Shown here one piece after another: positions 54,297 through 59,518 of a stretch of DNA of 59,551 nt. The stretch spans positions 1 through 59,551 of the forward strand of contig JACRHD010000045.1 in assembly GCA_016234115.1 (NCBI GenBank). The letters are read 5' to 3'. Within the stretch, counting starts at the first letter, position 1. Each line of letters begins with the position of its first letter. Position numbers and translations under genes: made by a program. The stretch comes from Nitrospirota bacterium (GTDB lineage: Bacteria > Nitrospirota > Thermodesulfovibrionia > UBA6902). A model generated the notes under the pieces. That model saw only the letters and a program-made list of their open reading frames with translations, made no database searches and was not told where the DNA came from.

Positions 54297-54373
<77 letters not shown>

Positions 54374-54465: not shown

Positions 54466-54519
54466 TTGGTTTTTTGGGTAATACATAAGCAGAGATTACT
54501 CAAAAATCGGAGGTAAAAA

Positions 54520-55141
54520 TTGGCTGTTTATAAAAGAGGAAACAGTTGGTATATCGATTTCATTTTCAATGGAGCCAGGGTCAACCGGAAGGCCGGAAAT
54601 ACAAAAACCGAGGCAAAAAGGATTGAGGAAGAGTTAAGAACGAAACTGAGACTGAAGATGCTCCATGTGTCGGACCTGACCGATACCGGAGACCGGTTAT
54701 ATTTTCATGTTGTCGCTGAAGAGTATCTGGACCATCTGGAAAGGTGATTGGAAACCCAAGACAAATGAAGAGAGGACCATTCCTTTGTGCGATGAGGCGC
54801 TGGATATTTTAAAAGGCCTTTTCAATAACAGAAAAAGCAAATGGGTATTTTCAAATACGGAGATTCCCGTGAGGTCCATTCAAAAGTCCCTCAAGACCGC
54901 TTCAGAAAAAGCGGGATTGACTAAACATGTAACCCCAAACATGATACGCCACACATTCGCAACTCATGCCCTTTGGGCCGGCGCCGACATAAAATCAGTC
55001 ATGGATATCATGGGGCATAAGAATATCGAAACAACAAACCGTTATTTGCATTCAATTCCAGAAACTCTGAAACGGACGGTCCAGCTCGTGCAGAATTTGA
55101 AGTCTGTTAAACCGCTGGAGACAGGGGGAAGCGAGAAATAG
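54520..55141 (+). pseudogene. Tyrosine recombinase/integrase with internal deletion
   Basis: The first frame (TTG 54520, GGAGG upstream, stop 54747) encodes the N-terminal arm-binding domain KRGNSWYIDFIFNGARVNRK and EAKRIEEEL. The second frame continues to 55141 with the catalytic C-terminus, EERTIPLCDEALDILKGLF, IRHTFATHALWAGADIKSVM and MGHKNIETTNRYLH with the nucleophile Tyr. The core-binding domain and the first half of the catalytic domain, including the first Arg, are deleted between them. The H of the usual HxxR box is Asn. It is therefore inactive. Its place behind tRNA-Pro marks an integrated element. Confidence 0.85.
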
Positions 55142-55849: not shown

Positions 55850-56596
55850 TTAGTGGGTATCCCTTATTCGTGAACAACCTCCTGTATATTCCAATATATA
55901 ATGCAGGCTCTCATCTTCTTCAAACTCGGATTCGATGCCAAGAAGTATCTGCTGGCAAGATTGCTCTTTCAGGAATGCTCTAACCCCTTGTCTCAACCCT
56001 GAGTCGAGCAATCCGTATGGCGAGTCAAACACAGCCGGAAGGTCAAGGTCCAGCACTTTCCTGATCGCAAACGCAAAGGCATAAAAAAGGCAGACCCGTT
56101 CACCGGCGGACATTATCGAGTGGTTCATATCCTTATGCTCATTTTTCCAGGGTGTTAGAATCAGCATACGTTGAAAGATTGTCCGCGCTTCAGCCCGGAC
56201 TGCTTCCCGGTTTTGACGATCAAGGATATCTGCAAATATAATTTCCGGGTCGCGCATAAACGCATCCGCTGACCTGCAACCAAGAAAAATAAGATTGCCG
56301 TGCTTCTTAATAAGGTCCCGATTGCCTCTTGTCACTACCTCAACTGATATATCAGGATTTGCTGAGTTAACATGTGCTCTAATGCCTCTTGCCGGCCCTA
56401 ATCCCGCAAGGGCATTAACAATAGTTGTCTTACCAGTGGCTGCGGCTCCAACAATGAGGGTTCTATTGCGATCAAGACTGAGTTCATTCGGACCCGAGAA
56501 AATGCCGTAGTCCCGAAGGAGTATTTTTTCAAAACGAACGGAGTTGGTTTGCGTTTTACTCATTTGAGAGATAATTTTATCAGACGATTGTGACAA
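55850..56596 (-). CDS. Compact DndD/Rad50-like ABC ATPase
   Basis: A 248-residue ATPase. The start FEKILLRDYGIFSGPNELSL is typical of SMC/RecF-type proteins, with Walker A IVGAAATGKTTIVNAL near residue 50. The ABC signature is MSAGERVCLFYAFAFAIRK near 165 and Walker B LPAVFDSPYGLLD near 192, where Ser stands in place of the usual catalytic acidic residue, as in DndD-type DTPLG. The long coiled-coil arms of Rad50 are missing. Such small ATPases occur in phage-defence islands with a partner effector; the receiver-like gene downstream is the candidate here. The assignment to defence is inference. Confidence 0.8.
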   Translation of the reverse strand: MSQSSDKIISQMSKTQTNSVRFEKILLRDYGIFSGPNELSLDRNRTLIVGAAATGKTTIVNALAGLGPARGIRAHVNSANPDISVEVVTRGNRDLIKKHGNLIFLGCRSADAFMRDPEIIFADILDRQNREAVRAEARTIFQRMLILTPWKNEHKDMNHSIMSAGERVCLFYAFAFAIRKVLDLDLPAVFDSPYGLLDSGLRQGVRAFLKEQSCQQILLGIESEFEEDESLHYILEYTGGCSRIRDTH

Positions 56597-56711: not shown

Positions 56712-57044
56712 TTAACCTCTAATTATTTCAACTGTCTTGTCGATGACCTCTGAGAGCTTTCCGCTCTTCAGATTGCCGATGCGATATAGAATGATATGGC
56801 TATCGGCAGTAAAGATGCGATTCGGCCTTATATTGCTCGACTGTTTAAGACCGCCTGTTTCAAAGTCATTGTCATCAAGGGGAAGGGAATAAACGTCCCG
56901 GACTGTCTTGCTGGTTATCTGGCAAAGTATGACATCATCACCCTCAAGAGATGCTATTACTAAAGCAGGGCGGCGTTTGGCGTTGGTTAGGTCGGAGAAA
57001 GGAAATGGAACAACAACGACATCCCCGCCTACAAACCTTGCCAC
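56712..57044 (-). CDS. MazF/PemK-family toxin
   Basis: A 110-residue endoribonuclease toxin. FVGGDVVVVPFPFSDLTNAK and RRPALVIAS form the fold's first strands with the conserved Arg, CQITSK follows, and SNIRPNRIFT holds the catalytic region. It should cut mRNA at short motifs when freed from its antitoxin. Its start overlaps the antitoxin end by 16 bases. No damage is visible. Confidence 0.88.
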   Translation of the reverse strand: MARFVGGDVVVVPFPFSDLTNAKRRPALVIASLEGDDVILCQITSKTVRDVYSLPLDDNDFETGGLKQSSNIRPNRIFTADSHIILYRIGNLKSGKLSEVIDKTVEIIRG

Positions 57045-57223
57045 GCGTCGTCCTCTTCGGGCAGGAGCCAGTCTTTACGGAGAGATGACTCGCCGGCAAT
57101 TGCGGTGTCCATTTTTTCCCTGATGATCCTGGTCTTCAGAAAGTGGACAAAATCCAAGACCTCATCAAGATATGATTCCGGGACTTGCTCGATTTCATTG
57201 ATCAAAATTTCTTTTTTACTCAT
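57029..57223 (-). CDS. Antitoxin of the MazF pair (DUF2281-type)
   Basis: A 64-residue protein with IEQVPESYLDEVLDFVHFLK, the helix typical of DUF2281 antitoxins, and an acidic toxin-binding end (DWLLPEEDDAWQGL). ATG 57223 has GAGGTC just upstream, while the longer frame does not. It is encoded before and overlapping the toxin, the usual order, and would repress the pair by binding its promoter. Confidence 0.85.
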   Translation of the reverse strand: MSKKEILINEIEQVPESYLDEVLDFVHFLKTRIIREKMDTAIAGESSLRKDWLLPEEDDAWQGL

Positions 57224-57295
57224 GCTGACCTCGCCTGTATGATATTCTATCAAATTTTCTATCTTCTTGAACACAAAGGAAAGTGGTCGCCAATT

Positions 57296-57616
57296 TCAAA
57301 TAAGCACCCCCTCATCCTTAACTGCCTGAGCAAGAAGGGAATAACGTTCAGGGCTGTCCTCCCATTCCTCCCGCGTGAAGACAACCGGGACTACTACAAT
57401 CCCATGTTCAAAACCGGCTTCCCATGCGCACTCGCTGACATACTCATAATCCTGCCCGCCGGAGACCTTATCCAGAACGACCAACACATCCATATCGGAA
57501 TATTGCGCCGCGTCACCCCTTGCCCTTGAGCCGAAGAGGATCATCTTATAAAGTAAAAGGCGTTTTAATAGCAATGCCTTGAAGGTGTCGAGGATGTTCT
57601 TTTCGAGAGTAGTCAT
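57296..57616 (-). CDS. MNT-type minimal nucleotidyltransferase
   Basis: A 106-residue nucleotidyltransferase. FGSRARGDAAQYSDMDVLVV carries the G-S and D-x-D catalytic motif near residues 28-47. In typical MntA-HepT modules this protein adds AMP groups to a HEPN toxin to silence it, but no HEPN gene is adjacent on either side. It may be orphaned, or guard one of the neighbours. Starts with ATG 57616; no clear ribosome site. Confidence 0.85.
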   Translation of the reverse strand: MTTLEKNILDTFKALLLKRLLLYKMILFGSRARGDAAQYSDMDVLVVLDKVSGGQDYEYVSECAWEAGFEHGIVVVPVVFTREEWEDSPERYSLLAQAVKDEGVLI

Positions 57617-57676: not shown

Positions 57677-58398
57677 TTAATTGAAATTCGCCAAAGATAT
57701 TTGCCCATTACTTGTCTGATCACGTAGTTGATTGAATATCAAAGTCGCTATTTGCATCCCATTTAAGCTCACAAAATGGTTTTTTTTGATTTCGTCCTTT
57801 GCCGAAGGACTAAAGTCAGATGTTGTGCAAAATATAAATAGTTGCGCAGGATATTGATTGTCTTTTTTTGTCCATTGGCGACTCCTGTAAAATTTTGAAC
57901 ATCAGGTCTATCAACATTTCCTGAATATCTCTTAGCTTGACCGTATAATTCAATAAAAGTAAACGGTGCAGTTGCGTATTCTGATTTAAAGGGAATCTTG
58001 CCCATGAAATCAACTCCCCCGTCTCCGGAACGTTTCGTAATTGAGATACTTTCAGCTTTAAAGCACTTCCGCATTAAAACGCCACAGAGGTCTTCAAAAT
58101 CTTGCCATTTCAAATTCTGTAATTGGTTTCTAAGATCTAACACAATAAAATAATTTCGATTTACAATAGTAATCGATTGAGTTGCCTCTTTAAAAAGACT
58201 CATTTCATTGTTGTTATGGCTTTCAGTAATTATGCGTTGAATATCCTCCACAAAATTACGAATGTTGTTTTCAGCCTTTTCTGCCGCTTGAAAAATGTTA
58301 AACCCCTTAAGTTTAAACTGCTCAGTTAGGAGATCACGGGTCTCAAATTTATCAGCTTTTTGTTGCTTGATGAGATCAACAATTATATCAAGATTCAT
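57677..58398 (-). CDS. Mrr-like restriction endonuclease with a -1 frame break at A AAA AAG
   Basis: The zero frame (58398 to 57769) gives 209 residues: a helical N-terminal part of about 95 residues, then an Mrr nuclease domain with KWQDFEDLCGVLMRK, GDGGVDFMG and ELYGQAKRY (D and QxK of the PD-(D/E)xK site). After FTGVANGQKK at residue 179 the zero frame degenerates. The -1 frame continues with the expected Mrr end, LFIFCTTSDFSPSAKDEIKK and HFVSLNGMQIATLIF, to a stop at 57677, total about 240 residues. The break lies at 57868-57862, A AAA AAG. AGGAG lies about 12 bases upstream of it. Either a lesion in an A7 tract or recoding could explain this. It overlaps the ParB-like gene by 11 bases. 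Confidence 0.72.
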
Positions 58399-59395
58399 TT
58401 TCTTTCAATATCCTAATACGGTTAACTTGCTTCTTCATATCGTCAATCTTTTTTTCGATTTCGTCTAAATCGTCCTTTGTCATATCGACTTCAAGGCTTT
58501 CACCTATAATGTTTTTGAAGGCATCAATTGCCCCTGTGATTTTACTGATACACTCTGGCAAGGTAGTTTTAGAGACATTAAGATTTTTCTGTTCATAATA
58601 TGTCATTGCTTTCTGAAAATTACGATCGTCTATGTAATTCAACGCTACTTCATCTCCCAGCAATGCGGCTATTTGCCTAATGTCACGATGGTCGGTAATT
58701 GCAGCAACACCATCCTCATTTGGTATTATCCAATCGTAAAAACGACATAGTTCATCAGTTTTTGTAAATTGAAACTTTTCTTCATCCCAGCCAAGATATT
58801 TGCGGAGTAAGGGACGTTTTAACACTTCGTCAAAATAACTGAAATAGGAATGTTTCCATTTACTACCGTATTCTTCGTCTTTCCGAAATCGGGTCATAGC
58901 ACTATAGGTTTTATAATATCTGTTGATGTCCTTGACTTGCATACCAATCATTTTAGAAATTATGCTGGGCGTCTTTCCTTTTGTTATCATCTCATTAACA
59001 AATTGAGCTTTTTGATAAGCATCCCATTCCTTTACTCCTGAGACATTTCTAATCCCCTGTATAATTTTACCGATACTTTCAATGTCATCCTCTGAATTAT
59101 CAACCATTAGTATATCCACATTTGAAAGTTGCTTGATACTGTGTTCAGAGAGAAGAGATTGTCCCAATTTGAATTGATTTACAATGTACTTAAGTGCGGT
59201 TGTACGTCGGTTGCCTTCAATGACAACATGGTTGACGTTGTCTAAGTTTTTTGCCACGATGCTGTCAACTTGAAGAAATCCAACGGCTTCTATCGAGTTG
59301 GCTAAACTAAGCACATCAAAACGAGGGTTCATCATTTTGTTATAAGCATGCTTCTGGATTTCATAATCAGTAAATCGATCCGGCGGGATATTCAA
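58388..59395 (-). CDS. ParB/sulfiredoxin-like DNA-binding protein
   Basis: A 335-residue protein. IPPDRFTDYEIQKHAYN and SLANSIEAVGFLQVDSIVAK form the ParB fold start, and VVIEGNRRTTALKYIV near residue 57 carries the G-x-R-R nucleotide motif. A helical region follows with KAQFVNEMITKGKTPSIISK, an HTH-like segment as in KorB/ParB, and a coiled C-terminus. The TTG start at 59395 is weak. The frame stays open to 59467 without any canonical start, and the codons just upstream (RIDRIWHISDET) look protein-like, so the true start may be a rare codon upstream. No ParA lies nearby, so plasmid partition is unlikely. It is probably a partner of the nuclease. Confidence 0.72.
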   Translation of the reverse strand: MNIPPDRFTDYEIQKHAYNKMMNPRFDVLSLANSIEAVGFLQVDSIVAKNLDNVNHVVIEGNRRTTALKYIVNQFKLGQSLLSEHSIKQLSNVDILMVDNSEDDIESIGKIIQGIRNVSGVKEWDAYQKAQFVNEMITKGKTPSIISKMIGMQVKDINRYYKTYSAMTRFRKDEEYGSKWKHSYFSYFDEVLKRPLLRKYLGWDEEKFQFTKTDELCRFYDWIIPNEDGVAAITDHRDIRQIAALLGDEVALNYIDDRNFQKAMTYYEQKNLNVSKTTLPECISKITGAIDAFKNIIGESLEVDMTKDDLDEIEKKIDDMKKQVNRIRILKENES

Positions 59396-59489: not shown

Positions 59490-59518
59490 AGTTTAAATTA
59501 GTGTTCGAGTTGTGTCAA
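59490..59518 (-). promoter_or_regulatory. Strong promoter of the ParB-Mrr operon
   Basis: On the minus strand a consensus TTGACA (59518-59513) and TAAACT (59495-59490) are 17 bases apart. AGGAG follows at 59480-59476. Confidence 0.65.

Follow-up and report, generated by a model that had tools for sequence, protein, structure and literature searches.

A_AAA_AAG is among the most efficient slippery heptamers in E. coli when stimulators are present (Sharma et al. 2014, PMC4066793), and its slipperiness in this bacterium has been ascribed to a sole tRNA-Lys that pairs weakly with AAG (Atkins et al. 2016, PMC5009743). Thermus, which has two lysine tRNAs, relies on RNA polymerase slippage instead, and bacterial RNA polymerase slips efficiently on tracts of nine A (PMC5009743). 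For frameshifted genes that fall into no cluster of similar cases, Antonov et al. 2013 (PMC3711429) regard an indel mutation or an error as the likely cause. The gene described here invites comparison with both situations. It resembles the -1 frameshift cassettes of E. coli dnaX and of IS3/IS911 by an in-phase A_AAA_AAG and a similarly spaced Shine-Dalgarno (SD)-like motif, but differs from them in that an effective downstream structure is lacking, the split is not conserved and the host has a tRNA-Lys(CUU). With the singletons of Antonov et al. 2013 it shares a single occurrence, a break in poly-A, a Pfam domain restored by joining the frames and intact homologues, and nothing sets it apart from such indel pseudogenes or errors.

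The gene encodes a protein with the catalytic domain of type IV-like restriction nucleases (Mrr_cat, PF04471), from which it differs by the division of this domain over two frames, by an N-terminal domain of no recognised family and by a ParB-like partner. Among the candidate defence proteins of PADLOC, the closest are PDC-M38A (ParB-like), matched by the upstream gene with 134 bits, and PDC-S02 (Mrr-like), matched weakly by the nuclease. The window referred to below is the whole stretch of 59,551 bases that was analysed, and the module is the pair formed by the ParB-like and nuclease genes. Coordinates are collected in Table 1.

Table 1. Features of the module and its surroundings (positions in the window unless another locus is named)
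Feature	Position	Strand	Description	Match
tRNA-Pro(TGG)	54297..54373	+	Probably where the island attached; in a congener this tRNA-Pro stands next to an intact integrase	
Tyrosine integrase, broken, two frames	54517..55141	+	About 565 bp missing relative to the intact congener copy	
Nuclease, -1 frame	57677..57862	-	61 codons (57862-57680) and TAA (57679-57677); last strand and helix of Mrr_cat (LFIFCTTSDFSPSAKDEI...)	PF04471, profile 76-114
Nuclease, zero-frame ORF	57769..58398	-	209 aa; ATG at 58398, 209 codons, TGA 57771-57769; N-terminal domain and most of Mrr_cat, including DGGVDF and GQAK	PF04471, 46.7 bits, profile 1-79 of 115
Weak stem-loop	57824..57848	-	Begins 13 nt after the heptamer; -3.0 kcal/mol	
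A_AAA_AAG heptamer, in phase	57862..57868	-	Meeting point of the frames; seven A (57869-57863), then G at 57862	
SD-like AGGAG	57882..57886	-	12 nt upstream of the heptamer, a permitted spacing	
ParB-like gene	58388..59395	-	Open from 59467; no ATG/GTG/TTG before TTG 59395	PADLOC PDC-M38A, 134 bits
Sigma-70-like promoter TTGACA-17-TAAACT	59490..59518	-	Upstream of the ParB-like gene; followed by AGGAG and no in-frame start	
A9 tract of the intact orthologous nuclease	L009 1772-1780 (G283:C36)		Codons matching the A7 of the window	

An Mrr-type nuclease divided between two frames

The first-pass annotation had described the zero frame as a partial nuclease whose missing C-terminus, of about 61 codons, lies in the -1 frame. 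The profile matches bear this out. The zero frame alone covers the first 79 positions of Mrr_cat, the -1 tail alone matches positions 76-114 with 17.9 bits, and the joined frames reach 65.9 bits over positions 1-114 of 115, so that the full domain needs both frames. The two parts are complementary pieces of one Mrr_cat domain that meet within about 5 residues of the A tract. The frame split is thus real in the sequence, and the break coincides with the A7 run or is no more than a few codons away from it. The heptamer at which the frames were said to switch is indeed in phase there, the zero frame reading CAA AAA AAG. Aligned with the homologues, the catalytic motif region (D...Q-x-K, here DGGVDF and GQAK) is found in the zero frame, while the last conserved strand (LFIFCTTSDF) and the helix of the domain are in the -1 frame. 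The zero frame continues for 30 codons past the heptamer before its stop, a stretch on which the first-pass annotation was silent. A sequence comparison of the joined protein with solved structures returned no match.

Most homologue matches read through the break point

The joined protein has matches in 61 of 396 genomes of the phylum, and of the 29 Mrr homologue matches examined, 26 keep a single frame across the break point. No second frame-split copy of the nuclease was found among the homologues, and the junction is not conserved in the diverged ones. The module is absent from nine congeners (0/9). When 230 genomes of the class and 270 genomes from a second class were searched for the pair of ParB-like and Mrr genes, a single pair was found, in genome G283, with 33% identity for the ParB-like protein and 29% for the nuclease; this nuclease is encoded by one continuous, uninterrupted frame. 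No close relatives of either protein were found in viral contigs, reference genome contigs, plasmids or phages; the ParB-like matches in plasmids and phages are remote, and none of the inspected ones has an Mrr nuclease behind it.

Programmed recoding and loss of one base from the tract had been offered as the two readings, between which close homologues with an uninterrupted frame were to decide. The G283 pair and other Mrr homologues read straight through, which supports the loss of a base and not recoding. However, the G283 orthologue is too distant (29% identical) to be a close homologue in that sense. At the codons matching the A7 run (E/Q-K-K), the G283 nuclease carries nine A (GAA AAA AAA AGC) with its frame intact. 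Both gene pairs have a GC content of 35-37% and contain several A runs of at least six, and given this composition the A9 of G283, in a comparison of two sequences only, may reflect chance together with conserved lysines.

The heptamer and its surroundings

The frame shift is confined to about 75 nt by the last stop of the -1 frame upstream of the site and by the first residues conserved in that frame. In this interval no homopolymer other than the A7 run exceeds four, and the A7 run is by far the longest there; it is therefore the expected site of a slippage mutation, an indel or a base-count error. Moreover, the phase of A_AAA_AAG is not independent evidence, since this phase arises automatically when an A tract ending in frame ahead of a G loses one base. 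Six further ORFs of 150 aa or more in the window also carry the heptamer in phase, the neighbouring ParB-like gene among them.

Both of the stimulators that had been proposed are there. The SD-like AGGAG stands at the spacing claimed, about 12 bases upstream; motifs of this kind at such a spacing precede 13% of the codons of the module and 21% of those in long ORFs of the window. The downstream stem, already called weak, consists of 6 pairs and one mismatch and is very weak. The RNA just downstream of the heptamer folds with -3.0 to -3.8 kcal/mol, and 77% of module positions fold equally well or better. Folding into simple hairpins gave no strong stem starting 4-10 nt after the heptamer. A 6-bp hairpin is present about 50 nt downstream, which is too distant to count if the rules given by Sharma et al. 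2014 (PMC4066793) are applied.

The genome carries a tRNA-Lys with anticodon CTT, i.e. tRNA-Lys(CUU). The pattern used on the genome gave no match for a tRNA-Lys(UUU) gene, which must exist to read AAA. Since tRNA-Lys(CUU) is present, AAG should be less slippery than in E. coli, which makes the analogy with dnaX weak here. The dnaX gene of this genome is itself a single ORF of 549 aa in which no in-phase A_AAA_AAG cassette was seen, and no IS3-type transposase (HTH_Tnp_1) that could serve as an internal control for the use of this heptamer is found in the genome.

The partner gene and the surrounding island

The stop of the ParB-like gene overlaps the start of the nuclease by 11 nt. This gene has no in-frame start codon between an RBS-like AGGAG and its conserved region, where its G283 counterpart has an ATG. 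A promoter candidate lies upstream (Table 1), and promoter-like sites are no more numerous in the region than in shuffled sequences.

The GC content of the module is to be compared with about 50% in the window; along the contig, GC drops from 50% to 38% as the end is approached. The region starts at tRNA-Pro(TGG), with the broken integrase beside it. The reference for this integrase is an intact 405-aa congeneric copy at the same tRNA-Pro, with flanks 90% and 84% identical. Between the integrase and the module, a short ATPase gene (55850-56596) encodes a P-loop at the N-terminus and a DndD/PbeC-like stretch at the C-terminus, the middle being missing; it may be a mini-ATPase or a remnant. A PemK/MazF-type toxin gene with a DUF2281-like partner, together with an MNT-like nucleotidyltransferase, occupies 56712-57274 and 57296-57616, adjoining the broken nuclease. 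The region is probably an old, decaying, horizontally acquired phage-defence island.

Related ParB-like genes elsewhere, in other genomes of the phylum and in phage Wphi (gp98), differ from the one described here in being followed by a different protein, with a DGG(V/L)DI-AW signature, and often by a C5 methyltransferase. This pair of ParB-like and DGG(V/L)DI-AW proteins is widespread, often beside a C5 DNA methyltransferase gene (loci L034, L035, L036, L070-L075 and L087), and includes gp98/gp96/Mth of the P2-like phage Wphi. It looks like a defence module.

Discussion

We consider it probable that the nuclease gene was broken by an indel in a decaying, horizontally acquired defence island. 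The frame split, the complementarity of the two domain parts, the intact orthologue, the partner without a start codon and the broken integrase are all seen in the sequences. The continuous frame in G283 and in most of the Mrr homologue matches speaks for this reading, and so do the A7 run as the expected indel site, the low GC content of the module and its absence from nine congeners. As the island is decaying, judging by the ParB-like gene without a start and the integrase deletion, gene breakage is the simplest account. In the scheme of Antonov et al. 2013 the nuclease counts as a singleton, for which an indel mutation or an error is the most likely cause. In the proposed course of events, a two-gene defence-type module, with a ParB-like protein and an Mrr-type PD-(D/E)XK nuclease translationally coupled through the overlap, would have been acquired horizontally as part of an island at tRNA-Pro, and a slippage mutation of a single base in the A tract would then have shifted the frame. 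Normal translation would now yield the 209-aa protein, with the catalytic-motif region kept, a wrong C-terminus and the last conserved strand and helix lost; this product is probably unfolded or inactive, and accidental slippage may still make traces of the full-length protein. Some observations fit breakage less easily. The -1 frame runs without a stop for 61 codons and keeps its conserved residues, so that either decay set in recently or the frame remains in use; with the frame still open and conserved, we infer a recent mutation. In E. coli, an A_AAA_AAG in phase and preceded by AGGAG at a working distance does form a slippery site, and the nine A of G283 may mean that the A tract was retained for a reason.

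An error of sequencing or assembly in the A run, with the true gene intact, ranks second, and we regard it as unlikely. Base-count errors are frequent in homopolymer runs, the gene is situated 1.2-1.9 kb from the end of the contig, the -1 frame looks constrained and the partner gene is also faulty near the contig end. However, elsewhere in the window, at 50% GC, long ORFs are intact, and ten A runs of at least seven occur inside long ORFs, which indicates that base calling is generally good, and the lesion of the integrase is a 565-bp deletion, not a base-calling error. A mutation in a decaying island is favoured over a sequence error, and the base change would be a real one.

Programmed -1 ribosomal frameshifting, which would produce a short form of the nuclease of 209 aa and a long form of 240 aa, appears improbable to us. 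A heptamer that is efficient in E. coli with stimulators (PMC4066793), AGGAG at a permitted spacing and a conserved, open -1 frame are what such recoding would use. But no homologue shares the split, the interval 4-10 nt downstream holds no strong stem and most of the module folds more strongly than the nearest structure, a tRNA-Lys(CUU) is present in the genome, unlike in E. coli with its sole tRNA-Lys (PMC5009743), six further ORFs of the window carry the heptamer in phase, and the upstream gene, expected to feed coupled translation, has no start codon.

Equally little can be said for an A tract whose length varies among cells or transcripts, by on/off phase variation or RNA polymerase slippage, for which we see a small chance. 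The G283 orthologue has nine A at the same codons in an intact frame, a length at which the polymerase slips efficiently (PMC5009743), and DNA-modification genes are known targets of phase variation (PMC3711429). Against this, the comparison comprises two sequences only, both genes are of 35-37% GC and rich in A runs, Q/E-K-K in A-rich codons gives such runs by chance, and seven A are short for either process. Finally, it is very improbable that the 209-aa protein is a functional form with a new C-terminus: it keeps the region of the DGGVDF and GQAK motifs, but it loses the conserved TTS/TTG strand and the following helix, which are present in the homologues examined, and its 30 new residues match nothing in Pfam.

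Taken as a broken gene, the nuclease is of little import except for annotation, in which both frames should be entered together as a single disrupted Mrr-type nuclease instead of a short functional protein. There is a slim chance that the A tract is instead a slippage switch retained in this nuclease lineage (A7 followed by G here, A9 in G283), which would set the amount of full-length active nuclease through ribosomal or RNA polymerase slippage or through variation in tract length, and so limit the damage that the defence system does to its own cell. A true switch of this kind would control the dosage of a defence nuclease and would be relevant to work on both recoding and phage defence. The module of ParB-like protein and nuclease is a widespread candidate defence pair, and intact copies, such as the one in G283, may merit study.
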